NCBI GenBank assembly: GCA_902523095.1
Contig: CABYYE010000002.1
Span: 1 to 64,000 of the forward strand
Source: an uncultured Pelagibacteraceae bacterium
GTDB lineage: Bacteria > Pseudomonadota > Alphaproteobacteria > Pelagibacterales > Pelagibacteraceae
Length of the DNA stretch: 64,000 bases
Direction: 5' to 3'
Part shown: positions 12,902 to 35,298 of the stretch, piece by piece
How positions within the stretch are numbered: position 1 is the stretch's first letter
How the letters are laid out: every line of letters starts with the position of its first letter
Made by a program: the position numbers and the translations under genes
Notes under the pieces: generated by a model
The model's database searches: none
What the model saw: the letters and a program-made list of their open reading frames with translations, nothing else
Told to the model about the DNA's origin: nothing

Positions 12902-13492
12902 CTATACATAAAACATAATAACACAAACGATAAGCAAAAAAGACATACTATAGTTAAAATTTTGAATAAATTGCTCGCTTGTGGCAAATTTTCTCAAATA
13001 TTTTCCCATGAAACACCATACAGCTTGACTTCCAACCGCCATAATAAAAAAAATGAGAATAACTATAGAAGAATCTTCAAAAAAATTATTTTGCATATCC
13101 ACAAACATTGAAATCGCAGTTAAAGCAATAACTATACTTTTAGGATTAACGAATTGAAATAAAAAAGTATTTAAAAAAGTAACAGGTTTCGGTAAACTCT
13201 TTTTATTTTTGGATTTAGTAAAAGATATTTTGTAAGCAATAAACAATAAATATATTGAACCTAAAACTTTTACAATTATTTGTAATTCCTTAAATTTTTG
13301 AAATACAAATGAAGAACCAACTAACAACACTATAACAAGTAATGTCCAGCCAATTATTACACCCAGCATTGTTGGAATAGTTTTTTTAAATCCAAAATTA
13401 AAAGCAGTATAAGATGTCATGATATTATTGGGACCCGGAGTCAAAGATGCTACAGTACTAAAAAGTATCAATGAAAAAAGTTGAGATGACAT
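12902..13492 (-). CDS. LysE-family amino acid exporter
   Basis: The 196-residue membrane protein has about six hydrophobic segments and the LysE/RhtB N-terminal signature SLTPGPNNIMTSYTAFNFGFKKTIPTMLGVIIG. The FVNPKSIVIALTAIS motif in the middle is also typical. Family members export amino acids or related metabolites from the cytoplasm. The substrate is not readable. It overlaps the stop/start of the csaA-like gene by one base and lies 3 bp before acnA, so these genes probably share a transcript. Confidence 0.88.
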   Translation of the reverse strand: MSSQLFSLILFSTVASLTPGPNNIMTSYTAFNFGFKKTIPTMLGVIIGWTLLVIVLLVGSSFVFQKFKELQIIVKVLGSIYLLFIAYKISFTKSKNKKSLPKPVTFLNTFLFQFVNPKSIVIALTAISMFVDMQNNFFEDSSIVILIFFIMAVGSQAVWCFMGKYLRKFATSEQFIQNFNYSMSFLLIVCVIMFYV

Positions 13493-13827
13493 TAAGCAAT
13501 ATCCAACCCATTTTCTGTTTTCTGAGAAGGATGAACTAATACCACTTTACCGTCTTTTTCTATTGCTCCTAGTATAAGGACTTCTGAGACTATTCCAGCA
13601 ATATTCTTTTTTGGAAAATTACACACTCCAATTACCTGTTTGCCAACTAAATTATTTGAATTGTAATAGTGGGTAATTTGTGCTGAGGATTGTTTAATAC
13701 CAATTTCTTCTCCAAAATCTACCTTTATAACTAATGAAGGCTTTCTAGCTTTTTCATTTCTTTTTACTTCTAGAACAGTACCAATCTTTAAATTTATCTT
13801 TTTAAAATCATCATAAGAAATTTCCAT
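13492..13827 (-). CDS. csaA: CsaA-like tRNA-binding domain protein
   Basis: This 111-residue protein is a stand-alone OB-fold of the EMAP-II/Trbp type: DFKKINLKIGTVLEVKRNEKARKPSLVIKVDFGEEIGIKQSSAQITHYYN, then KQVIGVCNFPKKNIAGIVSEVLILGA. The FGxExGxxxSSAQITxxY stretch is the CsaA hallmark. CsaA dimers bind tRNA and have been described as export-related chaperones. No aminoacyl-tRNA synthetase domain is attached. It is part of a minus-strand group with the LysE exporter and, 25 bp upstream, the proC-like gene. Confidence 0.88.
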   Translation of the reverse strand: MEISYDDFKKINLKIGTVLEVKRNEKARKPSLVIKVDFGEEIGIKQSSAQITHYYNSNNLVGKQVIGVCNFPKKNIAGIVSEVLILGAIEKDGKVVLVHPSQKTENGLDIA

Positions 13828-13852: not shown

Positions 13853-14611
13853 TTAGAACTTTTTAAATATACTATTTAACGCTTTTCTTTGGGCCTGATA
13901 AAATTTATTTTTTTTTAAATTTTTTAAAACGAAAGCATTTGTACCACCAGGAGTTTGTGAAACTTTAACAAGTTGTTTTAATGAAATATCTTTTTTATTT
14001 AAAGTATCCGCTGATAAAGCATAAAAAAGTTCTCTAACATACTTTTCTGCCTCTTTTTTTTTAATACCTTTAGATATAAGCCATTCGCTTGTAACAGAAA
14101 TCAAATTATAAAATGACGCCATAAAGGATGATGTTGACCAGAAACCTTTAGAAAGTTTTTCATCATTTATTTCTAAAGTCGTTCCTAAGTGATTAAAAAA
14201 ATTTTTGCTTTGTTTATCAATTGGAGAAATAATTATTGGACCTTTTCTCATTCCAATAAAAGGTAAAGGAATTACACGAGTAATATTTCTACTTTTAGTA
14301 AGTTTTTTTAAATCTTTAAGTTTTATAGTCGAAATAAAACTGATGATTTTTTTCTTTTTTTTAAAATTAAGTAATCTTAAAATCTTTTTTCCAACTTTAG
14401 GAGTAATTGCTAAGAAAATCCAATGAGAATTGTCTACTAGCTGTTGATTGTTATTTGATATGTATATTTTTTTAAATCTTTTAGACAGTTTTTTTGCTAT
14501 CAATTTATTACGTGGTGAAATATAAACCTTATTAAATTTTAACTTTGATTTAAATATACCTTCAATAACTGAAGTTGTAATATGGCCAGTTCCTATAAAA
14601 CCTAAATTCAT
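13853..14611 (-). CDS. Pyrroline-5-carboxylate reductase-like protein
   Basis: The 252-residue protein starts with a dinucleotide-binding motif (LGFIGTGHITTSVIEGI) like that of ProC. Near the C-terminus it has LKQLVKVSQTPGGTNAFVLKNL, resembling the ProC signature with its TPGGT core. ProC reduces pyrroline-5-carboxylate to proline with NAD(P)H. The sequence is divergent and very Lys-rich, and the protein is a little shorter than usual (about 270), so another NADP-dependent imine reductase of the same fold is possible. Its start codon lies only 5 bp from the divergent AbrB gene start. Confidence 0.75.
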   Translation of the reverse strand: MNLGFIGTGHITTSVIEGIFKSKLKFNKVYISPRNKLIAKKLSKRFKKIYISNNNQQLVDNSHWIFLAITPKVGKKILRLLNFKKKKKIISFISTIKLKDLKKLTKSRNITRVIPLPFIGMRKGPIIISPIDKQSKNFFNHLGTTLEINDEKLSKGFWSTSSFMASFYNLISVTSEWLISKGIKKKEAEKYVRELFYALSADTLNKKDISLKQLVKVSQTPGGTNAFVLKNLKKNKFYQAQRKALNSIFKKF

Positions 14612-15746: not shown

Positions 15747-16133
15747 ATGATAAATTTAATAGATCTTCTAGGAAGAGTATTAATCTCATTAGTCTTTTTA
15801 TTGTCCGGATACAATAAAATTTTCAATTATAGCAATACTGTATCTTGGATGGAAGGATATGGAGTCCCTGGCTTTTTATTATGGCCTACTATCGTTTTAG
15901 AAATTATTTTACCTATTTTAATAATTATAGGTTACAAAACTCAAATATCAGCTATTCTTTTAGCAATCTTTTGTATAGTCACAGCAATAATTTTTCATTT
16001 GGACTTCGCAAATCAAATGCAAGTAATTGCTCTGCTTAAAAACTTTGGTTTAGCTGGCGGATTTATTTTTATTGCGATTAACGGTCCTAAAGATTGGGCT
16101 TTAGACCAAAAAAAAAAGTACGTTAGACTATAA
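15747..16133 (+). CDS. DoxX-family membrane protein
   Basis: This 128-residue protein has four predicted membrane helices and the DoxX opening LLGRVLISLVFLLSGYNKIFNY, followed by PTIVLEIILPILIIIGY. DoxX proteins are small inner-membrane proteins tied to quinone-linked redox or thiosulfate/oxidative-stress complexes, but their roles vary and none can be assigned here. Its 3' end overlaps the 3' end of the convergent tctA gene by 6 bp, leaving no space for a separate terminator. Confidence 0.82.
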   Translation: MINLIDLLGRVLISLVFLLSGYNKIFNYSNTVSWMEGYGVPGFLLWPTIVLEIILPILIIIGYKTQISAILLAIFCIVTAIIFHLDFANQMQVIALLKNFGLAGGFIFIAINGPKDWALDQKKKYVRL

Positions 16134-17630
16134 TTTCTTTTTAATAAAACTATTATAAATTTGCCATCCCACTAAAAGGATAATTACAATCATGATGCAA
16201 AATGTTAAGGGTCTATCCCATAAAAATGACCAAGAACCGTCACTAATTAAAAGCGATCTTCTTAAATTTTCCTCCATTAAGCCGCCCAATACAAAGGCTA
16301 AAATTAGAGGGGGCATAGGAAAATCATAAAGTCTTAATATAGTTGCGACTACAGCTATACCAATCATTAAAAAGATATCAAAATTGTTAAATGACATTAA
16401 ATAAATTCCTGTTACTGAAAAAAATAAAATCATAGGAATTAAAAAAGTTCTAGGTACTGCTAGTATTCTTGCAATATACGGGATTAAAGGTAAATTAAGT
16501 ATTAATAAAACCACCATTCCAATATACATCGACATTATTACTGACCAAAAAATTTCAGGATTTGTCTCATAAAGTCTTGGTCCTGGCTGAATGCCAAAAC
16601 CTAATAATGCACCTAGCATTACAGCAGTAGTTCCACTGCCAGGTATACCTAATGTAAGTAAAGGTACAAAAGCTCCTGAACAAGCTGCATTATTTGCAGT
16701 TTCTGGAGCGGATAACCCTTGCACACTTCCTTTACCAAACTTTTCTTTTTCTTCATTACTTACAAAATTTCTTTCCATCCCATAAGCTAAAAACGATGCA
16801 ATTGTTGCTCCCGCTCCTGGTAGAACTCCAATGATAAATCCTAAAATAGATGAACGTGGAATAGTTTTAGCCATTTGTTTTGTTTCCTCTTTGCTGACTT
16901 TAATTGATCCTAATTCAGTTAAAGAAATCTGTTTCGCAGCTTTGGTAGGATCATTTCCTTTAATAATAATTGTTAAAGCCTCACTCATCGCAAATGTTGC
17001 CATTACAACTAAAACGAAACTTATACCATCTGATAAGTTCATGGTGTTAAACGTAAATCTTGGAATATCAGACAAAGTGTCTTGTCCAACTGATGCTAAC
17101 ATCAAACCTAAAACACACATCATCATTGCTTTTAAAAAATTTCCTTTTGAAGAGAAAGCAGCGACAGCAGTTAACCCTAAAATCATTAAACCAAAATAAT
17201 CTGGTGATCTAAAAGATAGACTAACTTTTGACAAGCTTGGCGCAGCGATTAATAAAAAGATTGCTGCGATTGTACCGCCTGCAAAAGAACTATAAGCAGC
17301 AATAGCTAATGCTTTGCCAGCTTTACCTTGTTGTGCCATTGGATAACCATCAAAAGATGTAGCTACTGTTCCTGGAACACCAGGTGCATTAATCAAAATT
17401 GAAGAAGTTGATCCACCAAATACAGCCCCATAATATACTCCTGCCATTAAAATTAAACCTGTAGCAGGATCAAAACCATAAGTAATTGGGATCATTAAAG
17501 CAATAGCAGTCATTGGGCCTAAACCTGGAAGCATTCCAATTATAGTGCCTGCAAAACATCCTATCATTACCATTAAAAGGTTTTGAAAAGATAAAGCAGT
17601 TTTTAATCCAATTAAAATTCCTTCGATCAT
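16128..17630 (-). CDS. tctA: Tripartite tricarboxylate transporter, large membrane subunit TctA
   Basis: The 500-residue protein has about 11-12 hydrophobic segments and the TctA signatures GLGPMTAIALMIPITYGFDP and MAGVYYGAVFGGSTSSILINAPGVPG, repeated later as LPGAGATIASFLAYGMER and LTLGIPGSGTTAVMLGALLGFGIQPGP. TctA is the transport channel of a sodium- or proton-driven system using a periplasmic binding protein. It overlaps tctB by 4 bp. The substrate is set by TctC; known systems of this family take citrate, other tricarboxylates, or dicarboxylates such as adipate. It ends the large minus-strand directon. Confidence 0.96.
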   Translation of the reverse strand: MIEGILIGLKTALSFQNLLMVMIGCFAGTIIGMLPGLGPMTAIALMIPITYGFDPATGLILMAGVYYGAVFGGSTSSILINAPGVPGTVATSFDGYPMAQQGKAGKALAIAAYSSFAGGTIAAIFLLIAAPSLSKVSLSFRSPDYFGLMILGLTAVAAFSSKGNFLKAMMMCVLGLMLASVGQDTLSDIPRFTFNTMNLSDGISFVLVVMATFAMSEALTIIIKGNDPTKAAKQISLTELGSIKVSKEETKQMAKTIPRSSILGFIIGVLPGAGATIASFLAYGMERNFVSNEEKEKFGKGSVQGLSAPETANNAACSGAFVPLLTLGIPGSGTTAVMLGALLGFGIQPGPRLYETNPEIFWSVIMSMYIGMVVLLILNLPLIPYIARILAVPRTFLIPMILFFSVTGIYLMSFNNFDIFLMIGIAVVATILRLYDFPMPPLILAFVLGGLMEENLRRSLLISDGSWSFLWDRPLTFCIMIVIILLVGWQIYNSFIKKKL

Positions 17631-18097
17631 CCCATTATTCCTATGTATTTTAGCAATGGATCTCTTAGATAAACAGCCAATAAACCATGAAGCAGATACA
17701 TAAAAATTGCAACAAATGGAAAAGAAAAAATTAAAATATATTTTAATCTTCTCTCCCCTAAAAAATAATATGAAAAAACTAAAAATAAAGAAGTAGATAA
17801 AAAGAAACCAACTTTAAGTATTGTTGCTCCATAAATAATCATAGTCAGCACCAATAATATTGTTTTTTTAAATTCTAAATATTTTGGGTCTACCTTTATA
17901 GGTTTTTGATCTGGTAAAATAATCTTTAGACCAGAAAAAAACATTCCTGCATAACCTAAGTAAATTGGAAAGGTTTTAGCATTAAAAGGTGCTCCTTCAT
18001 CGAATGCAAAAACCTGTATTTGATGAGCTGTATATAAATAAAATGCTGATAAAATAAAGAAGAGCAGTGAGATAATTTTTACAGAATTTATTTTCAC
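17627..18097 (-). CDS. tctB: Tripartite tricarboxylate transporter, small membrane subunit TctB
   Basis: The 156-residue protein has four predicted membrane helices in the TctB layout: one N-terminal helix (ISLLFFILSAFYLYTAHQI), the FPIYLGYAGMFFSGLKII segment, and a C-terminal pair. TctB sequences are poorly conserved, so the call rests on size, topology and position between tctC and tctA. It overlaps tctA by 4 bp and starts 23 bp after tctC. Confidence 0.9.
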   Translation of the reverse strand: MKINSVKIISLLFFILSAFYLYTAHQIQVFAFDEGAPFNAKTFPIYLGYAGMFFSGLKIILPDQKPIKVDPKYLEFKKTILLVLTMIIYGATILKVGFFLSTSLFLVFSYYFLGERRLKYILIFSFPFVAIFMYLLHGLLAVYLRDPLLKYIGIMG

Positions 18098-18120
18098 TGC
18101 TCTTCCAAAAAGTTAATTAA

Positions 18121-19101
18121 CTAGATTACGCCTAGTTTTTTCATTAACTTTGTCATTTCTTTAGTTTGCTTTTTTAAGAAACTGTCGAATTTGCTTCCTG
18201 GATTATAAATATTAACCCAAGCATTTCTTTTTCTAACTGTTTCCCATTCTGGAGTTTTTTGAACATCGCCTAACATTTTAGCAATCTTCTTAACGTCTCC
18301 GCTTGCCATACTTTTTGGAGCAAAGAAACCTCTCCAATTTACAAACTGAACATCGTATCCTTGTTCCTTCAGTGTTGGGACTTCTGGAGCGTCACCCACT
18401 CTTTCAGGTGCTGTAATACCAATAATTCTTACTTGGTCTCTAGCACCCATTACTTCTCCCAAACCAGTTGAGAGAATTTGAGTCTCTCCTGACAAAAGTC
18501 CAGCTAGGGCTTTACCACCAGCATCGTAAGGTACGTACACTACGTTGTTAGGGTTTGCGCCTGCTTCTTGAAATGCAAGTGCACCAATTAAATGGTCCAT
18601 GCTTCCTCTTACAGAACCGCCAGCCATTTTAATTGACTTAGGGTTTGCTTTGTAAGCATCCACTACATCTTTGAAATTTTTGTATGGTGAATTTTTAGCG
18701 ACTGCGATTGCACCGTAATCTCCAATTACACCAGCGATTGGCTTAACATCTTTGTAAGATAATACACCAGAACCTTTTACGTAACCTTTGTGTCTCGTGA
18801 TTGATCTTAATACTAAAGGTGTTGACTGAACTAATATAGTTCCTTCTGGCTTAGAATTAATTATGTAAGATAGAGCTTTTCCTCCTCCACCACCTGACAT
18901 ATTTTCAAATGAAGCGCTTTTTAGAAAACCAGCTTTAGTTAAAGCTTCTCCAGTCCCTCTAGCAGTTCCATCCCAACCACCGCCAGCACCACCACCGATA
19001 ATGAAATGTAACTTATCGATTGCAAAACTAGTTGATGAGATTGAAGTTAAAAGAACAGTAGCAAAAACTAAGCTAATTAATTTTTTCAAATTATTAAACA
19101 T
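18121..19101 (-). CDS. tctC: Tripartite tricarboxylate transporter binding protein TctC
   Basis: The 326-residue protein has a Sec signal peptide (about residues 1-27, ending SSTSFA) and then the TctC/Bug fold: LHFIIGGGAGGGWDGTARGTGEAL near the start, SMDHLIGALAFQEAGANPNNVVYVPYDAGGKALAGLLSGE in the middle. The periplasmic protein captures a carboxylate and delivers it to TctAB. AGAGGAAAA before the ATG is a good ribosome binding site. It lies 71 bp after a glutarate hydroxylase gene, which makes a C5 dicarboxylate a reasonable guess for the ligand. That is inference only. Confidence 0.94.
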   Translation of the reverse strand: MFNNLKKLISLVFATVLLTSISSTSFAIDKLHFIIGGGAGGGWDGTARGTGEALTKAGFLKSASFENMSGGGGGKALSYIINSKPEGTILVQSTPLVLRSITRHKGYVKGSGVLSYKDVKPIAGVIGDYGAIAVAKNSPYKNFKDVVDAYKANPKSIKMAGGSVRGSMDHLIGALAFQEAGANPNNVVYVPYDAGGKALAGLLSGETQILSTGLGEVMGARDQVRIIGITAPERVGDAPEVPTLKEQGYDVQFVNWRGFFAPKSMASGDVKKIAKMLGDVQKTPEWETVRKRNAWVNIYNPGSKFDSFLKKQTKEMTKLMKKLGVI

Positions 19102-19172: not shown

Positions 19173-20069
19173 TTAATTGAAAAAAGTTCCTCTGATTCTG
19201 AGCAATTCTCTGCTCAAATTGGTGTTTTCTTTAAACGGCTTTCTTCCATGGAGCCAAAAATAATTATTAGAAAATATGGTAGACCCAACTGGTAATGGAA
19301 ATTCGATTTTATTTTTACTTTCTTCGAGACAATCCGAAAGTCTTTGTAAAAACAAACCTTGATCCATATTTTTTGGTTCTGGAAATTGATCTATATAAGA
19401 GATTATGGGCTTATCGTTCTTATCTTTTTTAAATACAGGATGTTCTACTTTATAATCTATATTTTTACTTTTTGGTGAACCCCAAGTAAAATTTTGTTGC
19501 CCTACTGGATTATTGCTTAATTCATCTAGATGTTCCCAATCATCCAAGTGTAAAATAACACTTTCACCGCCAGAAACTCCTTGTTCTTCCATTTTTGTCA
19601 TGATTAACCAATCTGTTTTTTCTCTAACATAGGTACCATCAGTATGTAGATCTAAATTAGTGTAAGCTTTTCTTAAATAAGAGTCGCTACTGTCTTGGTG
19701 TTTAACGTAAAATCTAGCGTAATATTTCCCTGTCATTGAATCGAAATTTGGATTGCCCACTAAATAAGCTAGACCGGTAGAAAGTTTAACTAAGAAATCT
19801 TTATCAAATTTTTTATTATTTATTTCAGGCTCAATTATAGCTGTGCCAGACTCTCTATCGTTTAATATCTTAACTAAAGATTTGCCAAGTTTGCCTTCAA
19901 AAACCTCATCTAAACTTTTGGCTAGAGTAAATCTCGAAAAAGGTTTGTACTCTAATGAAGTTATAGTGTGTTTTTTAAAAGGAAAAATAAGCTTATCTAA
20001 ATCACTTTCTTTTAACCCTATAACCTTAACTCTTTTTGAGTTTTTATGATCTTTTATTTCTGCACTCAT
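19173..20069 (-). CDS. glaH: Glutarate 2-hydroxylase, CsiD/GlaH type
   Basis: The 298-residue protein matches CsiD/GlaH, a Fe(II)/2-oxoglutarate dioxygenase turning glutarate into L-2-hydroxyglutarate. Iron ligands are H142 and D144 in LDLHTDGTYV and H274 in YFWLHGRKPF; the RELLRIRGTFF end supplies arginines that can bind 2-oxoglutarate. The HLDDWEHLDEL and SYIDQFPEPKNMDQGLFLQRLSD stretches are CsiD-specific. Its ATG overlaps the azlD stop (ATGA). In Escherichia coli csiD is followed by lhgO and gab genes; here no L-2-hydroxyglutarate oxidase is adjacent, and tctCBA follows instead. Confidence 0.92.
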   Translation of the reverse strand: MSAEIKDHKNSKRVKVIGLKESDLDKLIFPFKKHTITSLEYKPFSRFTLAKSLDEVFEGKLGKSLVKILNDRESGTAIIEPEINNKKFDKDFLVKLSTGLAYLVGNPNFDSMTGKYYARFYVKHQDSSDSYLRKAYTNLDLHTDGTYVREKTDWLIMTKMEEQGVSGGESVILHLDDWEHLDELSNNPVGQQNFTWGSPKSKNIDYKVEHPVFKKDKNDKPIISYIDQFPEPKNMDQGLFLQRLSDCLEESKNKIEFPLPVGSTIFSNNYFWLHGRKPFKENTNLSRELLRIRGTFFN

Positions 20070-20392
20070 ATACTGTTTAAAATAGATAAAAGTATAGCAG
20101 AAACTATTGTTGGAACTACTAGATTTTTTTTAGTTACAATAAAAATTATTATGCAAGTTACTAATACCGCTATTCTGATAAAAAGATATGATTCCGCAAG
20201 CACTCCTGCGGGAAATATAATCATTCTTCCTAATAATGCTGCTAAAGTTGAGTAAGCAACACAATTAAACCAATGAAATATTTTAGATTTCACACTTACT
20301 TTTTCTGAAGTTAGAGCTCCCATAAATCGAGAGATAAATGTTGCTAACGAGGTAGCAATAATTGCTAAAACTATTATTTGACTACTTGTCAT
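20066..20392 (-). CDS. azlD: AzlD-family membrane protein
   Basis: I start this gene at the ATG at 20392 (MTSSQIIVLAIIATSLATFISRFMG) because a good GGAGAA site lies just upstream; the track start at 20428 adds 12 residues and lengthens the azlC overlap. The resulting 108-residue protein has three to four hydrophobic segments, typical of AzlD, the small partner of AzlC in branched-chain amino acid export. It overlaps azlC by 11 bp upstream and glaH by 4 bp downstream, so all three are likely translated as a unit. Confidence 0.88.
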   Translation of the reverse strand: MTSSQIIVLAIIATSLATFISRFMGALTSEKVSVKSKIFHWFNCVAYSTLAALLGRMIIFPAGVLAESYLFIRIAVLVTCIIIFIVTKKNLVVPTIVSAILLSILNSI

Positions 20393-21086
20393 TTTTTTCT
20401 CCAAATAAAAAAGCGATTGTTCCACCAATTAAGCCTGCAAATAATAAAGCCCACTCGGTTGAAACTAAATAAATCAAAGGACCTAATATTGTTCCTACAA
20501 CAACCGCAATAGATATACTTAAGTTTTTCATTGCACCAATCATCATACAAAAGAAATATACTGGGTTAACAATTGCTAAACCAATTAGCATATCTTTATT
20601 TAGATAATCAGCTGAAAGATAACCTAACGCTGTCATCAAAATCGCTGTTGACCATGTTCCTATACCTATCCCAATCCAAAAATCTATTCTGTGTTTTTTA
20701 TCTATTTTTTTATAACCATCTTTAGCAATTAACCAAGATGTTACTGCTAAGAAATGACATGATAAATAATATTTCCATTTCGGTTGAGTTTTATGTTCAA
20801 GTAATGGAAATAAAGAAACTGTCATTGGATAAAGTCTAAAGTTTACTAACCACACTGCTATAAATATATTGACTATTGAAGCACCAACCAACAAGGACTC
20901 TGCCATCACTAATTGACCAGGTAATGCATAAGTAAATAAACTTGAGGCAGCACTTTGTTTTAAATTAAAACCAGCATCTTTTAATAAAGCGCCTAATGCA
21001 ACAAAGCATGCTGCTAAAGGAATAGCTGGACTTTTAGAACCTTGTAATGATTTTAAGCCTTTTAGAAATACTTTTGAGTTTATCAT
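20382..21086 (-). CDS. azlC: AzlC-family amino acid exporter subunit
   Basis: The 234-residue membrane protein has the AzlC pattern: IPLAACFVALGALLKDAGFNLKQSAASSLFTYALPGQLVMAESLLVGASI, then LVNFRLYPMTVSL. AzlC with AzlD forms a branched-chain amino acid efflux pump in characterised bacteria. It overlaps the livF-like ATPase by 4 bp. An export pump placed inside an import operon is unusual and may vent an amino acid by-product or act as a second transport step. Confidence 0.9.
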   Translation of the reverse strand: MINSKVFLKGLKSLQGSKSPAIPLAACFVALGALLKDAGFNLKQSAASSLFTYALPGQLVMAESLLVGASIVNIFIAVWLVNFRLYPMTVSLFPLLEHKTQPKWKYYLSCHFLAVTSWLIAKDGYKKIDKKHRIDFWIGIGIGTWSTAILMTALGYLSADYLNKDMLIGLAIVNPVYFFCMMIGAMKNLSISIAVVVGTILGPLIYLVSTEWALLFAGLIGGTIAFLFGEKNDK

Positions 21087-21868
21087 CCTCCAAGGAATAA
21101 TCTTCCTACGTCTGGATTTTTAAGAAGATCGTCCCCTTTGCCAGCAATTGCTGTTTGTCCTGATACCAAAACATATCCAATATCAGCAAACTCCAAACCT
21201 TTTTTTGCGTTCTGCTCTACAAGTATAATTGTTTTCTTCTCAGTTTTTTGAAGATCATCCAAAATTTCAAAAACCATATTTATGTATTTAGGTTCCAAAC
21301 CGATTGACGGCTCGTCTACCAATAATACTGAAGGTTTCATAACTAAAGCTCTAGAGATTTCTAACAATCTTCTCTCGCCCCCTGATAAAACTTTTGCAGG
21401 TTGATTTCTTCTATTTCTTAATCTTTCATATTTTTGAAAAATTCTTTCAGCTTCCTCATAAGCTTCATCCTGTTTATCTTTGATATAGCCACCCATTAAA
21501 AGGTTTTCCTCAACAGTCATATCGGGAAATACTGAATTATCTTGTAAGATGTAAGCAATACCAACTTTACTTAATTTTTGTGCAGGTGTTAATTTTGTAA
21601 TTTCATCACCTTCTAATTCAATTTTTCCATCAAAAATATTTGTAAAGCCATAAATAGAATGAAGTATTGTAGATTTCCCTGCTCCATTCGGTCCTATTAA
21701 ACATAACGATTGAGCTTTACCTACGGTCAAATCAAAGTTGTGAAGAATTTCCATTTTACCGTACCCAGCCTTTAAACCTCTGATGGTCAAGTGAACATCA
21801 TTAGGAGATAGTTTGTTAAGGTCTTCTAAACCAGGTGCTTTACCTAAAACATCATATTGATTTGCCAT
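21083..21868 (-). CDS. livF: ABC transporter ATPase, LivF type
   Basis: The 261-residue cytoplasmic ATPase has Walker A GPNGAGKST, signature LSGGERRLLEISRAL, Walker B VLLVDEPSIGLEP and the switch His region ILVEQNAKKGLEFADIGYVL. The LivF type powers branched-chain amino acid or amide import with LivG. A stretch of about 28 residues before the usual start (MANQYDVLGKAPGLEDL) is an unusual N-terminal extension. It overlaps livG by one base and azlC by 4 bp. The substrate is set by the LivK-type protein encoded at 25744. Confidence 0.95.
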   Translation of the reverse strand: MANQYDVLGKAPGLEDLNKLSPNDVHLTIRGLKAGYGKMEILHNFDLTVGKAQSLCLIGPNGAGKSTILHSIYGFTNIFDGKIELEGDEITKLTPAQKLSKVGIAYILQDNSVFPDMTVEENLLMGGYIKDKQDEAYEEAERIFQKYERLRNRRNQPAKVLSGGERRLLEISRALVMKPSVLLVDEPSIGLEPKYINMVFEILDDLQKTEKKTIILVEQNAKKGLEFADIGYVLVSGQTAIAGKGDDLLKNPDVGRLFLGG

Positions 21869-22602
21869 TATTGAGCTCCTAAATAAGCATCGACAACTCG
21901 CTTGTCATTTTTAATTTGATCAGGTGAACCCTCTGCTAACATTTTTCCATGCGCTAAACAGAAAATTTTTTGTGCCAAACTCATAATCACTTTCATATTG
22001 TGTTCTATAACTAATAAAGTTATTCCATAATCTTTATTTATTTTAATCAATCTATCAATTATTCCATTTATTAATGTTGGATTAATTCCAGCTGTGGGCT
22101 CATCTAGTAAAAGCATTTTGGGTTCATTCATTAAAGCCATTGCTAATTCTAATAACTTTTGCTGACCAAATGACAAATCCCCTGCTCGTAAGTTTCTTTT
22201 TTGATAAAGACCTACAAAATTTAAAAGGTTTTCTGCTTTTTCAGTTAGCTCAGTTGGCACTTTTGCAAAAATAAATCCTGAATCACTTGCTTTATGACTT
22301 ATTAGCATATTCTCTACACAATTAAGCTTTGAATAAATTCTTGTTTGTTGGAAAGTTCTTAACAAACCAAGTTTAGCTACTGCTGGAACAGGCATTTCTG
22401 ATACCTCAGTATTATTGAAAACTATAGATCCTTTATCTATTGGATGAGTTCCTACAATAGAATTAAATAAAGTAGTTTTACCTGAACCATTAGGTCCAAT
22501 TAAACCTACAATTGATCCTTGCTCTACCGAAACAGAAATATCTACATTGGCTTGCACACCACCAAAAGATTTACTTACGCTTTTAACTTCTAAAATACTC
22601 AT
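21868..22602 (-). CDS. livG: ABC transporter ATPase, LivG type
   Basis: The 244-residue ATPase has Walker A GPNGSGKTT, the LivG-like signature LSFGQQKLLELAMAL, Walker B MLLLDEPTAGINP and VIEHNMKVIMSLAQKIFCLAHGKMLAEG at the C-terminus, all typical of LivG/UrtD-type ATPases. It pairs with LivF to drive the LivHM permeases. It overlaps livM by 4 bp and livF by 1 bp. Confidence 0.95.
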   Translation of the reverse strand: MSILEVKSVSKSFGGVQANVDISVSVEQGSIVGLIGPNGSGKTTLFNSIVGTHPIDKGSIVFNNTEVSEMPVPAVAKLGLLRTFQQTRIYSKLNCVENMLISHKASDSGFIFAKVPTELTEKAENLLNFVGLYQKRNLRAGDLSFGQQKLLELAMALMNEPKMLLLDEPTAGINPTLINGIIDRLIKINKDYGITLLVIEHNMKVIMSLAQKIFCLAHGKMLAEGSPDQIKNDKRVVDAYLGAQ

Positions 22603-23657
22603 TTTAATTCCACTTGTGCTTTACGGTCTTTTTCATCAATAGTTTCTCCAAATCTATCAGGGTATTTTTCTCTTAACCAACCCATTAACCCTTCTGGGAA
22701 ATAAACTACGATCACAACAATTAGAACTCCCAGCGCAACATATTGCCAACCCAATATAAAAGTCCAAAGACCTTCTTTAAAGAAATGGAATAAAGTTGCT
22801 CCAATTATTGGTCCCCATAAAGTTCCTTTACCACCAAGTATTGCCATAAGAACCATAAATACTCCCATCTCTCTTCCATCAAATGCAACATCCGTTGAGT
22901 CTATATATCCAATTAATCCACCCATAATTCCGCCAGCAAGACCACAAAAAAATGCAGAGCACATCCAACCTACAATTTTATATTTCATTGTCTGAATACC
23001 CATTGCCTCTGCTTTATCTTCATTATCTCTTATCGCATTAAGTATTAATCTAAATCTAGAGCCGTAAATATATTTAACAAAAACAAATGCTACAACTAAT
23101 ACAAAAAAACTTAAGAAGTAAAAAAATTGTCCTCTTGCTTCAGGATCAACTATTTCCGCAGGAAAAGGTGGTGTAGTAAAGCCTTGACCTGCTCCAATAA
23201 TTTCTATTCCTCCGGCGATTTCACCTGCTGCAATTCCAAGGCCTAAAGTACAAATAGCAAAGTAATGACCTCTTAAACCTAGAATAGCATAGCCTATTGC
23301 GCCAGCAACAATGGTAGGAATAATAGCTGCAACCAATAACCCGACACCTATTCCTTGAAAATATTGTGCTGTAGTATGAACAAACGTTTTTTCACCACCA
23401 CTTTCTGTCCACTCTGCTAATGGAAAAAACATACCAACTTGAACTGAGGCTGTTAGATACATTCCAAGACCATAGAAAAGAATATTTCCAAAAGAGTTGT
23501 AGCCCATTTCTCCGCCTTGTAAATTCCAAGTCATCGCTAGAACGATCAAGACACAAAGATATGTAAGTTGAACTTTAAAAGCAGAAAACAAAAAAGGCGC
23601 AGCTAAACCTAAGATTATTAGGCCTGAATATAAGATAAGATCTTTTTGTTTCATCAT
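22599..23657 (-). CDS. livM: ABC transporter permease, LivM type
   Basis: The 352-residue inner-membrane permease has about ten hydrophobic segments and LivM landmarks: LAMTWNLQGGEMGYNSFGNILFYGLGMYLTASV near the N-terminus, RFRLILNAIRDNEDKAEAMGIQTMKYKIVGWMCSAFFCGLAGG in the ATPase-contact region and MAILGGKGTLWGPIIGATLFHFFKE near the end. It would pair with LivH. It is separated from livH by a hydrolase gene that overlaps both by 4 bp, an uncommon arrangement. Confidence 0.94.
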   Translation of the reverse strand: MMKQKDLILYSGLIILGLAAPFLFSAFKVQLTYLCVLIVLAMTWNLQGGEMGYNSFGNILFYGLGMYLTASVQVGMFFPLAEWTESGGEKTFVHTTAQYFQGIGVGLLVAAIIPTIVAGAIGYAILGLRGHYFAICTLGLGIAAGEIAGGIEIIGAGQGFTTPPFPAEIVDPEARGQFFYFLSFFVLVVAFVFVKYIYGSRFRLILNAIRDNEDKAEAMGIQTMKYKIVGWMCSAFFCGLAGGIMGGLIGYIDSTDVAFDGREMGVFMVLMAILGGKGTLWGPIIGATLFHFFKEGLWTFILGWQYVALGVLIVVIVVYFPEGLMGWLREKYPDRFGETIDEKDRKAQVELK

Positions 23658-24784
23658 AATAAGTTCTCCTTAAAAAAATTGATGAATTGGGGCATATAAA
23701 CTTCTGCGTTATCCCCTCCAATGGTGACGCCTTTTGAGATGCATTTTTCTTTCTTCATAATTTTGAAACCAGTTTTCCATGCTTTTCTTGGATCTTTCTG
23801 CGCAGTTTCATAAAATGCCTCTACGGACGGGTAAACTTTGTGTTTGTTTACCATCCATTCCACCCAAGTAGGATTGGTAAATCTACCTTCGTTATCAACA
23901 TAGAAATCAGGACAATCATGAAGAGTCATTGCCATTTTTTCTCTCCAAGGTTTTTTACCGGCAGCCCAGGCATGATACCAACCTTCCTTAATATCTACTT
24001 TTACTTTACCAGGCGGTGCTTTAATTCTCTCAGCATGTTCTTTACAAAACTTGGCTAAAGTATAATCATCCGCGCCACCGTGCACTACTAATAAAGTAGT
24101 ATTAGATGTTAATTCTGGTTTTGCAAAAAAACCGGCCATTCTACATTCTGCTGCTTCTGGAAGAATTGCGTCAAAACCTTTGGAGCCTCCAAGAAACTTA
24201 GATGTAAGTTTAACGTCTGCTAAGAAAAAAGAATTGGTTCCACCTCTTGAATGTCCAGTTGTTCCAAATTTCCCATTAGATCTTGGGTGAGACTGCAAAA
24301 CTTTAAACGCCATGAGTGCATCGATTGCTCCATTTATTAAAGGAACTTTAGACTGATCTCTCCATGTAGATCTAGCGCCTCTAGGACAAAAATTATCAAT
24401 ATACATTACACCAATGCCCTCTTTTAGAAGATTTTGTGCTGCATGATATACAAAGTCATCCCAAACATAATCTCCAGGTCCTCCACTGCTATGAGTATAA
24501 ATTACTATAGGAACTTTACCTGTTCCTTCTGGCAATCGAAGATATCCTGTTATTTCAATAGGATTATTCTTATGACCATCTATCAAAACAGTTCTCTGAT
24601 CAAAACCAGTATAGGAATTGAATTTAATTATTTCACCTCCTCCATAACCTTTTAATTTGGAGATACCTTTGAGCATCGATAATTTTTTTCTGCAATTATC
24701 TTTTGAATTAAATTGAGGTGGTGAATGAGCTAGTAAACTGGTTGAAAATAAAATAGTAAACAAAATAATAACAAATTTCTTCAT
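23654..24784 (-). CDS. Secreted alpha/beta hydrolase (dienelactone hydrolase-like) within the ABC operon
   Basis: The 376-residue protein begins with a Sec signal peptide (MKKFVIILFTILFSTSLLAHS), so it should act in the periplasm. The alpha/beta-hydrolase triad can be placed as Ser in GTTGHSRGGTN, Asp in HGGADDYT and His in EGWYHAWAAG. The segment IVIYTHSSGGPGDYVWDDF can form the oxyanion loop. Several cysteines (NFCPRGA, AAECRMA, KFCKEHA) could form periplasmic disulfides. Relatives cleave esters, lactones or dienelactones. The gene overlaps both livH and livM by 4 bp (ATGA), so it is likely made with the permeases and may release the ligand that the transporter takes in. The substrate is unknown. 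Confidence 0.85.
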   Translation of the reverse strand: MKKFVIILFTILFSTSLLAHSPPQFNSKDNCRKKLSMLKGISKLKGYGGGEIIKFNSYTGFDQRTVLIDGHKNNPIEITGYLRLPEGTGKVPIVIYTHSSGGPGDYVWDDFVYHAAQNLLKEGIGVMYIDNFCPRGARSTWRDQSKVPLINGAIDALMAFKVLQSHPRSNGKFGTTGHSRGGTNSFFLADVKLTSKFLGGSKGFDAILPEAAECRMAGFFAKPELTSNTTLLVVHGGADDYTLAKFCKEHAERIKAPPGKVKVDIKEGWYHAWAAGKKPWREKMAMTLHDCPDFYVDNEGRFTNPTWVEWMVNKHKVYPSVEAFYETAQKDPRKAWKTGFKIMKKEKCISKGVTIGGDNAEVYMPQFINFFKENLL

Positions 24785-25674
24785 TTTAAATATTCCCTTT
24801 TTTTGGATAGTTTAAATCTTCTGTAAACTAATATAAAAACAAGCAGCATAAATACTGCCCCAATTCTAAATTCTGTACCTAAAATATAATCTGCAAACTC
24901 CTCAAAAAGTCCTAGTCCCATACCTGAAATTGCTACCGCTGGTAAATTACCAAGGCCTGCAACAATTACTATCATGAAAGATCTAACTGTATAAGGAAGT
25001 CCCACATAAGGATGAAGGGTAAGAGTTATTGAAATTAATGCTCCAGCAATTCCACATAAAGCTGCATTGATACCAAAAGTCGCTGCATAAACTTTTTCAG
25101 TATCTACACCTAAAATTTTTGCAGCTCTCGCATTTTGTGCTGTAGCTCTTATAGCTCGTCCGAGCCTAGATCTTTTCATGTAAATAACTAAACCAATTGC
25201 ATATAAAACACTTATAAAAGCAGCGAATATTTTTGAATTTGGTAGAGTTACTGAATTATCGAACAACATTGTTGTTCCATACTCCGACTGAGCCACAACT
25301 ACATCTGCTCCGAAAACAAAATTCATTAATTGTTGAAATACAATTGCAATTCCGAAAGTTGCTAAAATTGAAATAAAAAGATCTCGGTCTACGACTTTAT
25401 TTATAACAAGTTTATATAAAGCCCAACCTACAAAATACATTATAATTGGAGAAACAATTACACCCCAAGCTGGATGAATTCCAGCAAGATACATAGTGTA
25501 TGCAATATAACCTCCAAGAATTACTAGATCTCCTTGAGCAATATTAATTATATTCATTACTCCCCATTGAAGTGCCATGCCATAAGCTATTAAAGCAAAT
25601 AAAATTCCAAGAAGAATTCCATCCAAAGATGCTTGGACCATTAAGATTGGAGCTTTAAAAATTAGAAAGTCCAT
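24781..25674 (-). CDS. livH: ABC transporter permease, LivH type
   Basis: The 297-residue permease has about eight hydrophobic segments with LivH landmarks: GILFALIAYGMALQWGVMNIINIAQGDLVILGGYIAY near the start, RLGRAIRATAQNARAAKILGVDTEKVYAATFGINAALCGIAGALIS in the ATPase-contact loop and SFMIVIVAGLGNLPAVAISGMGLGLFEEF later. It forms the import channel with LivM. It is preceded by an intrinsic-terminator hairpin lying after the binding-protein gene, so its expression is likely lower than that of livK. Confidence 0.94.
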   Translation of the reverse strand: MDFLIFKAPILMVQASLDGILLGILFALIAYGMALQWGVMNIINIAQGDLVILGGYIAYTMYLAGIHPAWGVIVSPIIMYFVGWALYKLVINKVVDRDLFISILATFGIAIVFQQLMNFVFGADVVVAQSEYGTTMLFDNSVTLPNSKIFAAFISVLYAIGLVIYMKRSRLGRAIRATAQNARAAKILGVDTEKVYAATFGINAALCGIAGALISITLTLHPYVGLPYTVRSFMIVIVAGLGNLPAVAISGMGLGLFEEFADYILGTEFRIGAVFMLLVFILVYRRFKLSKKREYLK

Positions 25675-25695
25675 AAAATTAAAAAATTTATAAAA

Positions 25696-25728
25696 GAAAA
25701 GCCCCTAGAAAACTAGGGGCTTTTTCAA
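25696..25728 (-). terminator. Hairpin between binding-protein and permease genes, likely operon attenuator
   Basis: GCCCCTAG (25701-25708), four A and CTAGGGGC (25713-25720) form a perfect 8-bp GC-rich stem with a tetraloop. On the minus strand it is followed by TTTTCTTTTAT. It sits in the 69-bp gap after the livK stop and before livH, where partial termination would leave more livK message than permease message. A T run also follows on the plus strand, but no plus-strand gene enters here. Confidence 0.85.
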
Positions 25729-25743
25729 ATTATTTATAAGTTA

Positions 25744-26985
25744 TTAACTTCTTTCTGACCACTTAGGTATTGGGTGGTAGAACTTGTCTGAAGCCCATTT
25801 AGTAGGAGCAACAACTTTATTCTCACACGTATCACCTTTACATCTTACTTGGAACAAGATCATTGGTTTAGCAACGTTTTGGCCACCTGGACCAAATTTT
25901 ATGTTTCCATAGAAAGTTTGCATGTCAGTAGTTTTCAAAGCATCTCTTACTTTATCTCTGTCAAAAGAATTTGCTCTTTCGAACGCATCTTTAAACACTA
26001 GCAAAGCAGCAGATGACTCAGCTGATTGGTACGGCGGTGCATAACCAAACTCTTTTTTAAAGTCTTTGTCATACTTTTTTCCACCACCAAAAAACTTATC
26101 TTTGTAACTTAAGTTTTTATGCCACTGTGAAGCACATAATGCGTACTCTGAATTCTTTCCATGTTGTTTAGAAAGTTTTGCAGCATCACAATGTGTCATC
26201 GCTAACATTGGAACATCAACTTTCATTTCAGAAATTTGTCTGATTGCAGTTAATGCACCTTTTGTGTGGCCAGATACAACAAGTACATCAGGCTTAGTTG
26301 CTTTAACTTTAGCTAATGTAGCAGCCATATCATTTAACTCTTTTGGCAATTTGTCATCAATAATGATTTCTGATCCAGTTCTTTTTGCTGCATCTAAAAT
26401 ACCAAGTCTCACGTCTTGTGAGAATGCGTCTTGTTCAAATGCTTGTGCAATTCTAACTGGTTTCCCACCATTTTTTTCAACAGCAAGATCGATTGCTACT
26501 TCAAGGTATTGGTTAGCTGGTGATAACACCGCAAACAAATATTTGTATCCTTTTGTAAATAAAGATCTTGATGCACCGTTTGCTTCAACCATAGGAATTT
26601 TATATTTCTCGGTTACTGGTGCAATGGCTTTCGTTAAACCTGAACTGTATGGTCCAAGCATATAATGAACGCCGTCTTGTTTGATTAGTCTTTCAGCTAA
26701 CTGAGCAGCTCTTTTAGGATTTGACTCATCATCGTAATAAATGATTTCAAATTTATAAGATTTTCCACCAACTTTTACACCACCCATTTTATTGATTCTA
26801 TCAACGGCCATATTGTAACCATTTTGAGTATGTACTCCATTAGAAGAATATTTTCCTGTAAGAGATATCGCAGAACCTAAAACAATATATTCACCTTCAA
26901 CTTTTGCAAAAGAAGAAGAGATAGATGCTATTGTCAAAGTTATAGCTGAAATAAAAATAGTAAATAGTTTTACTAGTTTATTCAT
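25744..26985 (-). CDS. livK: ABC transporter substrate-binding protein, LivK type
   Basis: The 413-residue protein has a Sec signal peptide (about residues 1-27, ending SSSFA) and the type I periplasmic binding fold: YIVLGSAISLTGKYSSNGVHTQNGYNMAVDRINKMGGVKVGGK, YYDDESNPKRAAQLAERLIKQDGVHYMLGPYSSG and VEANGASRSLFTKGYKYLF. This resembles LivK-like amino acid or amide receptors. CKGDTC near the end could form a small disulfide loop. AAAGGGGAA precedes the ATG. It is the first gene of the directon and is followed by an attenuator hairpin. The true ligand cannot be read; Leu/Ile/Val is only the default guess. Confidence 0.93.
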   Translation of the reverse strand: MNKLVKLFTIFISAITLTIASISSSFAKVEGEYIVLGSAISLTGKYSSNGVHTQNGYNMAVDRINKMGGVKVGGKSYKFEIIYYDDESNPKRAAQLAERLIKQDGVHYMLGPYSSGLTKAIAPVTEKYKIPMVEANGASRSLFTKGYKYLFAVLSPANQYLEVAIDLAVEKNGGKPVRIAQAFEQDAFSQDVRLGILDAAKRTGSEIIIDDKLPKELNDMAATLAKVKATKPDVLVVSGHTKGALTAIRQISEMKVDVPMLAMTHCDAAKLSKQHGKNSEYALCASQWHKNLSYKDKFFGGGKKYDKDFKKEFGYAPPYQSAESSAALLVFKDAFERANSFDRDKVRDALKTTDMQTFYGNIKFGPGGQNVAKPMILFQVRCKGDTCENKVVAPTKWASDKFYHPIPKWSERS

Positions 26986-27064: not shown

Positions 27065-27679
27065 TTAATAATTTTGAGAAGCCGCGACATATAATGCGAT
27101 AAGTATTAATACACACGCGGAGATTGTATTTAAAACTTTTGGGTTATCTTTAAGCCATATAGATACTCTGCTTGCTGCAATAGCATAAATCATTAAAGTT
27201 AAAAAATCTAAAGATATATATGTAATTATTAATATAAAAAATTGAACAGTATAATTAGAAGTAAAGTCTATAAACGAAGTAAAAATGGTTCCAAAAAATA
27301 TTATTGATTTTGGACTTAATCCAGCAACCAAAAAACCGTCTCTGTAAAAAGAAAAAGCTGACTTTAAATTTTTATTTCTTGAATTAATTATTCTTACCCT
27401 TGAAGTGTAAGTGTCATAAGCTAAATAAATAATATATAAAATTCCGGCCCACTTTAACGCTTGAAGAATATCTGGATTATCGCTTAAAAAAGTTCCAATA
27501 AAAAATACTACAAGAATTCCTTGGCACAAATTTGCTGATATATCTCCAAATGCAGTCCATATAGACTTTTTAATTCCATAATTTAAAGTATGAGAAACAA
27601 TTACAACGCGCGGAGGACCCGGAGTAATAAACAAAAATAAAATTATTTGTAAAAAAATTAAAAAATCAGTTGGAAACAT
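27065..27679 (-). CDS. LysE-family amino acid exporter
   Basis: The 204-residue protein has six hydrophobic segments and the LysE/RhtB start FLFITPGPPRVVIVSHTLNYGIKKSIWTAFGDISANL, with GLSPKSIIFFGTIF in the middle. It differs from the family at TPGPPR where TPGPNx is usual, the Asn being replaced by Pro. It probably exports an amino acid. It lies 79 bp upstream of livK on the same strand and may belong to the same transcript, and is divergent from the small TIGR03643 gene. Confidence 0.85.
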   Translation of the reverse strand: MFPTDFLIFLQIILFLFITPGPPRVVIVSHTLNYGIKKSIWTAFGDISANLCQGILVVFFIGTFLSDNPDILQALKWAGILYIIYLAYDTYTSRVRIINSRNKNLKSAFSFYRDGFLVAGLSPKSIIFFGTIFTSFIDFTSNYTVQFFILIITYISLDFLTLMIYAIAASRVSIWLKDNPKVLNTISACVLILIALYVAASQNY

Positions 27680-32865: not shown

Positions 32866-35298
32866 ATGAAATCAAAAACAAAAGTGGTGGTAGTCGGTGG
32901 TGGTGTAGTCGGAGTAAGTGTGCTTTATCACTTAGCTAAAAAGGGTTGGTCAGACGTAGTATTAGTTGAAAGAAAAGAATTAACTTCAGGATCAACTTGG
33001 CATGCTGCGGGATTATTGCCTTTGTTTAATATGAGTTATTCAGTTGGTCAACTTCATAGATATGCTGTTCAACTTTATAAATCTTTAGAAAAAGAAACAG
33101 GTAAGAATGTTGGTTTTAGTGTTGTATCAAATATTCGCTTAGCGCAAACTCAAGATCGTATGGATGAATATCATCAATACGCAGGTGTAGCTAAAACTAT
33201 TGGGGTAGATGTAAAGTTTTTAAAACCTCAACAAGTAAAAGAAATTTGGCCATTAATAAATACTGAAGGTTTAGTTGGTGCAATACAACATCCTGAAGAT
33301 GGTTATATTCAGCCGGCGGATTTAACACAGGCATTAGCAACAGGTGCAAGAAATCATGGAGCAGAAATTTATAGAAACACAACAGTTACAGAAATTAAAC
33401 AAACCAAAGATGGTTGGATTGTTAAAACTGACAAAGGAGATATAGAATGTGAGCATGTTGTATCTTGTAGTGGAAACTTTGCAAGACAAACTGGTCGAAT
33501 GGTTGGTTTAGATATTCCTGTAATTCCTGTTGAACATCAATACATAGTTACTGAGCCTCATCCAGAAATTCAAAAAAGAAGGAAAGAAGGAAAACCTGAA
33601 ATGGGAGTGCTTAGAGATAGTGATAACTCTTGGTACATGAGAGAGGAAGCTGGCGGATTATTACTTGGTCCTTATGAAAAAGGGGCGCCATGTTGTTATG
33701 TTGATGGTCCTTCTAAAGATAGTGAATATGAATTATTTCAAGAAGATTTAGATCGATTAGCCCCACACATTGAAGGAGCAATAAAAAGAGTTCCTGCGTT
33801 TGGAGAAGTTGGTGTAAAAAAAGTTTATAATGGTGCAATCGCTTACACTCCTGATGGAAATCCGATAGTTGGTCCTGCATGGGGATTAAAAAACTTTTGG
33901 ATTAATGAAGGCCATAGTTTTGGAATTACAGCTGCAGGAGGAGCTGGATGGCAATTAGCTGAGTGGATAATTGATGGCGAACCAACTATAGATATGCTTG
34001 GAGTTGAACCAAGAAGATATGGCTCATACGCAACTAAATCTTATTTAAAAGCTAAAAATGAGGAAGCGTATGCAAATGTATTTACAGTTCATTATCCTGA
34101 TGAAGAAAGAGAAGCAGGCAGACCTTTAAGACAAGCTCCATGCTACGATCGTTTAAAAAAATTAGGAGCAGTGTTTGGTGCTAAATTTGGATGGGAAAGA
34201 GCTAACTTTTTTTCAAGAGATGGAGAGAAACAAGAAGATGATTGGTCGTTTAGAAGATCTAAATGGTTTAAAAATGTTGAGAGTGAATGTAGGAATGTAA
34301 AAGAAAATGTTGGACTTCTTGACATGACAGCATTTGGAAAATGTAGAATTAAAGGTCCTGGAGCAGAAGAATTTTTAGATAAACTTGTTGCAAATAAACT
34401 TCCTAAGAAAATTGGAAGAATTAATCTTTGTCATGCTTTAAATACTAAAGGTGGTGTTCATTCTGAATTTACTATCATGAGAGAAGCGGAAGATAGTTTT
34501 TATTTGGTTTCAGCTGGAGCATACCAAAGACTTGATCACGATTGGATTCATAAATGGATGCCAAAGGATGGAACTGTCCAATACGAAAATTTAACTAACA
34601 GTATGGGGGTTTTAGTTGTCTCTGGACCTAAAGCGAGACAGCTTATGCAAAAAGTTTCTAGATCAGATTTTTCTAACGAAAGATTTAAATGGTTAAGTGC
34701 ACAAAATATTAATATCGGTTTAGCTCCCTGTAGCGCTATGAGAGTAAACTTTGTTGGAGAATTAGGTTGGGAACTTCATCATCCAATCGAATATCAGAAT
34801 CATATCTTTGATCAATTAATGGAGGCTGGAAAAGAATTTGGTTTAAAACCTTACGGTATTAGAGCTATGAATAGTCTTAGAGTTGAAAAATCATATAAAT
34901 TAGTAGGAACAGAATTATCAATTGAATACTCACCATATGAGTCAGGTCTGGATAGATTTGTTCACCCAAATAAAGGGGATTTTATAGGTCGTGCGGCATT
35001 AGATAAATGGAGAGCAAAAGGCTTTTCAAATAAATTAGTTACAATGGAAATTCATGGCGTTACTGATGCGGATGTTTTAGGAAACAATCCAATATACAAT
35101 AATGGTTCCGTTGTTGGCAGAGCTACAAGCGGAGATTTTGGTTTCAGAGTAAATAAATCAATTGCTCTGGGCATGGTTAAGCCTGAATTAGCAAAAGTTG
35201 GTCAAAAATTAAAAATAGATATTCTTGGTAAAATGCATGAGGCTTCGATAGTAGAAGAGTCTCCTTATGATGCTGATAATAAATTACTTAGAGCTTAA
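32866..35298 (+). CDS. Dimethylglycine/sarcosine dehydrogenase-like flavoprotein with GcvT domain
   Basis: The 810-residue protein joins an FAD oxidase domain (VVVVGGGVVGVSVLYHLAKKG, then GSTWHAAGLLPLFNM, whose His is the usual covalent FAD site) to a GcvT-like tetrahydrofolate domain in the second half (LLDMTAFGKCRIKGPGAEEFLDKLVANK ... GELGWELHHP ... GIRAMNSLRVEKSYKL). Such enzymes demethylate dimethylglycine or sarcosine, pass electrons to ETF and load the methyl carbon on tetrahydrofolate. Direct abutment to etfB (TAAATG), with etfA and an ETF-quinone oxidoreductase after it, supports this. Substrate choice between dimethylglycine and sarcosine is open; the separate sarcosine oxidase genes at 41368-46480 favour dimethylglycine. 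Confidence 0.88.
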   Translation: MKSKTKVVVVGGGVVGVSVLYHLAKKGWSDVVLVERKELTSGSTWHAAGLLPLFNMSYSVGQLHRYAVQLYKSLEKETGKNVGFSVVSNIRLAQTQDRMDEYHQYAGVAKTIGVDVKFLKPQQVKEIWPLINTEGLVGAIQHPEDGYIQPADLTQALATGARNHGAEIYRNTTVTEIKQTKDGWIVKTDKGDIECEHVVSCSGNFARQTGRMVGLDIPVIPVEHQYIVTEPHPEIQKRRKEGKPEMGVLRDSDNSWYMREEAGGLLLGPYEKGAPCCYVDGPSKDSEYELFQEDLDRLAPHIEGAIKRVPAFGEVGVKKVYNGAIAYTPDGNPIVGPAWGLKNFWINEGHSFGITAAGGAGWQLAEWIIDGEPTIDMLGVEPRRYGSYATKSYLKAKNEEAYANVFTVHYPDEEREAGRPLRQAPCYDRLKKLGAVFGAKFGWERANFFSRDGEKQEDDWSFRRSKWFKNVESECRNVKENVGLLDMTAFGKCRIKGPGAEEFLDKLVANKLPKKIGRINLCHALNTKGGVHSEFTIMREAEDSFYLVSAGAYQRLDHDWIHKWMPKDGTVQYENLTNSMGVLVVSGPKARQLMQKVSRSDFSNERFKWLSAQNINIGLAPCSAMRVNFVGELGWELHHPIEYQNHIFDQLMEAGKEFGLKPYGIRAMNSLRVEKSYKLVGTELSIEYSPYESGLDRFVHPNKGDFIGRAALDKWRAKGFSNKLVTMEIHGVTDADVLGNNPIYNNGSVVGRATSGDFGFRVNKSIALGMVKPELAKVGQKLKIDILGKMHEASIVEESPYDADNKLLRA

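Follow-up and report, generated by a model that had tools for sequence, protein, structure and literature searches.

The window analysed here is a 64,000-nucleotide stretch of contig CABYYE010000002.1 (positions 1 to 64,000; assembly GCA_902523095.1) from an uncultured Pelagibacteraceae bacterium, whose genome assembly (G000) is 886 kb long and 75% complete. Its minus strand carries a nine-gene operon in the order lysE-livK-livH-livM-livG-livF-azlC-azlD-glaH. A tenth gene, here called HYD, which encodes a predicted exported alpha/beta hydrolase, lies between livH and livM. The locus very likely combines a conserved Liv-AzlCD-GlaH operon with a separate passenger gene, HYD, that occupies a favoured slot inside the operon.

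The first gene of the conserved order encodes a LysE/RhtB-type amino-acid exporter (27065-27679; PF01810, 89.5 bits), which adjoins livK in about 100 loci. LivK (25744-26985; PF13458, 184.8 bits) is a HAAT-family periplasmic binding protein, LivH (24781-25674; PF02653, 120 bits) and LivM (22599-23657; PF02653, 100.6 bits) are ABC permeases, and LivG (21868-22602; PF00005 and PF12399) and LivF (21083-21868; PF00005) are ABC ATPases. Together these have the composition of the HAAT/Liv branched-chain amino-acid importers: a binding protein, two BPD_transp_2 permeases and two ABC ATPases. AzlC (20382-21086; PF03591, 86 bits) and AzlD (20066-20392; PF05437, 42 bits) are the adjacent subunits of a branched-chain-type amino-acid exporter, both domains scoring above cut-off; the azaleucine-resistance equivalog TIGR00346 is not reached (19.7 versus 332 bits). 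The azlD start used here is an internal ATG in a frame that can be read from a TTG at 20428 onward. The last gene, glaH or csiD (19173-20069; PF08943, 438 bits), encodes a predicted Fe(II)/2-oxoglutarate-dependent glutarate 2-hydroxylase. HYD occupies positions 23654-24784. Its slot is bordered upstream by livH, and a second slot, bordered upstream by azlD and downstream by glaH, is empty in the window.

Overlaps of 4 bp join livH to HYD, HYD to livM, livM to livG, livF to azlC and azlD to glaH; livG and livF overlap by 1 bp, and azlC and azlD by 11 bp. Between livK and livH there is a gap of 69 bp containing a terminator-like hairpin (25697-25724, minus strand; a 12-pair stem followed by a T-rich tail) that may act as an attenuator. 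Rfam matches in the region are all below the gathering score, and one of them (25661-25743) spans this hairpin. The original prediction had given the gene order from livK to glaH, with overlaps of 1-11 bp from livH onward, and the list of open reading frames bears it out. Its family assignments stood for every gene save the hydrolase, which by itself matches no Pfam or NCBIfam model. It had overlooked two co-directional neighbours, the LysE-type exporter before livK and a tctC-tctB-tctA set after glaH. The latter (16128-19101) starts 71 bp past glaH and encodes a complete tripartite tricarboxylate-type (TTT) importer, TctC at 18121-19101, TctB at 17627-18097 and TctA at 16128-17630, all on the minus strand (PF03401, PF07331 and PF01970 cover the set). 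Convergent with tctA, the segment 15747-16133 gives a weak match (35 of 80 bits) to a maturation model for HvfX-type copper-binding ribosomally synthesized and post-translationally modified peptides.

About 120 loci were retrieved and their gene order parsed, and the junctions were counted on about 108 loci from Pelagibacteraceae. The order from lysE to glaH is conserved in genera g1, g2, g4 and g9 and in part of g12; Liv, AzlCD and GlaH, first noticed together in the window, thus form a genuine conserved association. The importer beside azlCD-glaH varies. Only lysE-azlC-azlD-glaH is left in genus g5, with no importer alongside, and in two g12 genomes (loci L363 and L364) a TRAP system, DctPQM, replaces Liv before azlCD-glaH, the two DctP proteins being 51% identical to each other. 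Therefore azlCD-glaH is the tightest unit of the operon. Genus g1 and a small number of others have the tctCBA set beside glaH. Most copies of the core operon lack HYD.

Insertions, defined as more than 150 bp between adjacent operon genes, were found almost exclusively at two junctions, livH/livM (39 of 106 loci) and azlD/glaH (27 of 108). The other internal junctions were nearly untouched: livK/livH 0 of 104, livM/livG 0 of 108, livG/livF 0 of 109, livF/azlC 1 of 109 and azlC/azlD 0 of 108. Summed, these five give 1 insertion in 538, a difference with a Fisher p of about 1e-38, uncorrected for relatedness among the loci.

The two slots are filled by many kinds of genes. At least nine unrelated cargo families occur at livH/livM, including HYD, a second alpha/beta hydrolase (cl0) and a protein with an HExxH motif (cl1). 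By a rough test, which cannot tell a signal peptide from a membrane segment, 32 of 33 livH/livM cargos have a hydrophobic N-terminus. At azlD/glaH there are at least six unrelated families, among them HYD, cl0, an inverse-autotransporter pair, a pentapeptide-like protein and an allantoin set; the inverse autotransporter and allantoicase were named by Pfam and the others by eye. The allantoin set, found in four loci (L102, L119, L124 and L165), consists of an NCS1-like permease followed by three opposite-strand genes including the allantoicase, an unusual insertion in that reversed genes lie within an operon. Two cargo names were tried and dropped: metallopeptidase for cl1, for which the HExxH motif is the only ground, Pfam and PDB giving nothing, and glycoside hydrolase for a 335-residue cargo of genome G267, a guess with no Pfam match.

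The same cargo families recur in unrelated operons. HYD orthologues, 61-95% identical to the window protein, were found at mtnA/mtnB, sdr/folB, moaA/moaC and azlD/glaH, the sdr/folB site lying in a uvrB-uvrC neighbourhood. These neighbour names, and the pathways they imply (methionine salvage, folate and molybdopterin), are our reading of the sequences. Among 80 HYD loci from another collection, 34-38 are at sdr/folB (the figure varies with the treatment of contig ends and of tandem cargo), 19 at livH/livM, about 15 at mtnA/mtnB, and 2 each at azlD/glaH and moaA/moaC. The livH-HYD-livM order is therefore not peculiar to this assembly, a doubt raised with the original prediction, and a chimeric assembly as its origin is ruled out by the many independent loci with the same order; many of the source isolates bear AG- names, which we take to denote single-cell genomes. 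The family cl0 is found at livH/livM, azlD/glaH, mtnP/mtnA and sdr/folB and after gpsA, and cl1 at livH/livM, mtnA/mtnB and acnA/prpD. Cargos also occur in tandem, HYD with cl1 at livH/livM of G205 and HYD with cl0 at mtnA/mtnB of G183, G223 and G257. In a tree of 35 HYD proteins, 7-8 changes of site are required, and the g2 copies at azlD/glaH cluster with g1 copies at mtnA/mtnB (support 98/94).

Three observations concern sites and relatives elsewhere in the window and its genome. In the window acnA (10226-12898) directly neighbours a prpD-like gene (8721-10226), and genome G079 (locus L217) has cl1 between the homologues of the two; the window therefore has another slot, which is empty. The window genes at 32866-35298 and 35299-36048 have homologues in locus L343 that flank HYD, so that their junction is possibly a further slot, also empty here. 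A relative of the cl0-type hydrolase, at 55% identity, is encoded in the window's own genome on contig C13 (19500-20258).

These distributions bear directly on the pathway first proposed for the locus, in which the secreted hydrolase would cut an ester, lactone or amide, the Liv system would import a fragment and GlaH would oxidise a C5 dicarboxylate derived from it. HYD is predicted to be exported with its catalytic set intact, its position between livH and livM recurs, and in two g2 genomes it stands directly before glaH, all of which such a pathway would accommodate. But most copies of the operon do without HYD, its orthologues reside in unrelated operons, and the same slots elsewhere hold a metallopeptidase-like or a pentapeptide protein or else allantoin genes. 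Nor is there a sign that HYD is tied to LivK, which is unchanged by its presence: LivK is at least 82% identical across genera regardless of slot content, and the LivK proteins of G157 and G229, two genomes with an empty slot, have 100% and 99% amino acid identity to the window LivK. Judged by genomic context, homologous loci thus largely show what the original prediction named as its refutation, a hydrolase unrelated to the importer's ligand, and the joint pathway is very improbable. Rather than a pathway step, the secreted hydrolase is probably a passenger that can be swapped. Since the passenger moves among unrelated operons, HYD need not act on the ligand of the transporter beside it.

The junctions themselves suggest how such a passenger is accommodated. 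The overlap of a cargo with its upstream gene is exactly 4 bp (ATGA) in 18 of 24 cargo-by-junction contexts, as against 22% of 1820 same-strand gene pairs. HYD would enter through this ATGA, its own start overlapping the upstream stop codon, and would therefore be translated by coupling with no need for a promoter of its own. The stop codon of livH is mostly TGA where the slot is occupied and TAA or TAG where it is empty. Among livM alleles with the KQKD motif, the short start M-x-KQKDL, seen in the window as MMKQKDL, is found in 25 of 26 occupied slots versus 2 of 54 empty ones, and the longer start MxxVKQKDL in 52 of the 54 empty. As one livH/livM allele is common to unrelated cargos, the likeliest explanation is that new cargo replaced old where the slot had been opened before.

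Alternatively, the slots may merely be tolerant junctions where random insertions survive, special only in their lack of harm. Polymorphic single-gene indels are known in SAR11 core regions (PMC2217521), and empty livH/livM junctions mostly have no overlap to disrupt, as this reading would have it. Yet a small number of junctions around the genome are used repeatedly by different cargo families, and a junction allele common to unrelated cargos is not predicted by random, independent insertion. On balance mere tolerance appears rather unlikely. With passengers in favoured slots, livH/livM would be one of a few operon-internal sites with changing occupants, most of them exported proteins, and a passenger would shift from a slot in one operon to a slot in an unrelated one, probably when recombination replaces an earlier cargo. 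A more far-reaching version, that SAR11 keeps a few privileged operon-internal slots and circulates exported enzymes among them as promoterless, ATGA-joined single-gene cassettes through integrase-free recombination between common junction alleles, is advanced only tentatively.

Several points weigh against the passenger interpretation. First, the loci are related and the insertion counts are therefore not independent, so that the case rests on the numbers of cargo families and sites. Second, the 24 overlap contexts were compiled by hand, which makes their p of 5e-8 indicative. Third, no recombination machinery was found, integrases and repeats not having been searched for systematically. Fourth, recent transfer of HYD is only moderately backed by divergence at 4-fold sites, which to genus g2 is 0.43 for HYD versus 0.32-0.67 for neighbouring core genes. 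Finally, in genomes carrying both, a periplasmic hydrolase could feed the importer.

The HYD protein has a signal peptide, read by eye from MKKFVIILFTILFSTSLLAHS. A confident AF2 model (pLDDT 90.7) predicts an alpha/beta-hydrolase fold, and Foldseek matches its core to dienelactone hydrolases, feruloyl esterases and lipases (probability 1.00, E down to 1e-13). The nucleophile S179 lies in the motif GHSRGG. In an alignment of 22 sequences S179 and H271 are invariant and position 239 is D or E, a Ser-Asp/Glu-His arrangement from which the triad S179-D239-H271, with D239 as the acid, is proposed. HYD thus resembles dienelactone hydrolase (DLH) and feruloyl esterase-like enzymes in fold, in its GxSxGG nucleophile elbow and in the D/E and H positions; it differs in being exported, in carrying about 80 extra residues at the C-terminus, among them a conserved C348, and in that the window protein is unmatched in Pfam, the DLH model included, although 7 of 22 relatives match that model. 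Within the genome collection, every one of its 80 top-scoring relatives comes from Pelagibacterales, and the named public loci with close copies belong to Pelagibacteraceae or Pelagibacterales, that is, SAR11. Viral carriage was considered, and a search of viral contigs for near relatives of HYD, excluding cl0 and cl1, found none.

GlaH scores 421.4 bits against NF002814 (glutarate dioxygenase GlaH), well above the curated equivalog cut-off of 333. When aligned to E. coli CsiD (1jr7), its residues H142, D144 and H274 correspond to the Fe ligands, R291 to the 2-oxoglutarate arginine, and R293 and G145 to the glutarate residues of the published site, in which they are His160, Asp162 and His292, Arg309, and Arg311 and Gly163 (PMC6265302). 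Profile and active-site residues together thus assign the window protein as a glutarate 2-hydroxylase, in agreement with the original prediction. In these respects it is like the enzyme of the E. coli csiD-lhgO-gabDT pathway (PMC6265302); unlike that pathway, its partners in the window are a HAAT importer and AzlCD and LysE exporters. LhgO, the enzyme that would oxidise L-2-hydroxyglutarate, belongs to the pathway context and is no requirement for placing GlaH in its family. Its model (NF008726) was above cut-off in only 2 of 20 genomes tested, one from g9 and one from g12; a second g12 match is just under the cut-off and contains a stop. No match above cut-off was found in G000, at 75% completeness, or in more complete genomes of the same genus, and LhgO was set aside as a missing partner there, the matches being low-scoring.

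The core operon pairs a glutarate 2-hydroxylase with one HAAT-type importer and two exporters of amino acids, and would most likely deal with an imported amino acid, or a C5 acid or amine, that yields glutarate, which GlaH would convert to L-2-hydroxyglutarate. Perhaps the operon serves uptake of a C5 acid or amine. One specific form of this idea, that Liv-AzlCD-GlaH imports glutarate or a C5 precursor derived from lysine or cadaverine, GlaH catalysing the first step of breakdown and HYD playing no part, is possible but less likely than not. It is compatible with a passenger hydrolase, being a guess at the substrate of the core importer. Conservation of the order in about 108 loci and in genera g9 and g12 is in its favour, as are the dicarboxylate-type TRAP in Liv's place in two g12 genomes (the DctP of one, G032, scores 422 bits to a solved TRAP dicarboxylate-binding protein), the TTT importer after glaH in g1, and the listing of glutarate 2-hydroxylase among polyamine enzymes in a SAR11 study (PMC8437039). 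The combination of azlCD-glaH with a variable importer is consistent with a C5 acid, or a precursor of one, being taken up, though it is not proof of this. Against it stand the 18 of 20 tested genomes with no LhgO above cut-off, the g5 operon with no importer adjoining, the uptake of glutarate by E. coli through KgtP and not an ABC system (PMC12622518), and a LivK that fits no substrate-specific model.

LivK falls below every NCBIfam equivalog cut-off, and no substrate could be named by profile. Unlike established Liv importers, the window subunits all miss the Liv equivalog cut-offs (LivK 85 of 477 bits, LivG 212 of 362, LivF 182 of 441 and LivH 103 of 379), and the importer has a cargo slot at livH/livM and is linked to AzlCD and GlaH. 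The best-scoring PDB relative of LivK is 8WCH; the AF2 model of LivK itself, from a shallow alignment, is of too low confidence (pLDDT 44.8) to suggest a ligand. TctC was considered as a glutarate-binding protein and rejected, its nearest solved relatives, which include BugD and terephthalate-binding proteins, being too distant (at most 91 bits). Relatives have a second Liv-type system after a proC-like gene (13853-14611 in the window); it is missing here, and csaA (13492-13827) directly follows.

Two known systems invite comparison with the slots. Polymorphic gene indels were described in SAR11 in 2007, some of the indel genes being under purifying selection and rearrangements being commonest between operons (PMC2217521). 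As there, single genes here are present or absent between otherwise syntenic loci. Unlike there, operon-internal junctions are reused by unrelated, mostly exported cargos with stop/start overlaps, and one gene family switches between operons. Like integron gene cassettes, the cargos would be single genes that lack promoters and are exchanged at a shared site; unlike them, they use several different sites within metabolic operons. Moreover, the gaps between cargo and host genes, mostly about -4 to +8 bp, leave no room for an attC beside the cargo gene. Slot reuse by interchangeable exported enzymes together with operon switching was not found described in a limited search of the open literature.

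SAR11 genomes are among the most streamlined and tightly syntenic. If the slot model holds, part of their flexible gene content would be accounted for by variable exported enzymes that sit inside conserved operons and need neither promoters nor islands nor mobile elements, and the model would provide a testable rule for where SAR11 flexible genes are located. It would also be a caution on guilt by association: a gene joined by perfect 4-bp overlaps on both sides within a nine-gene operon may be unrelated to it in function. The Liv-AzlCD-GlaH core would be a concrete target in the search for a glutarate-precursor importer in an abundant marine bacterium.

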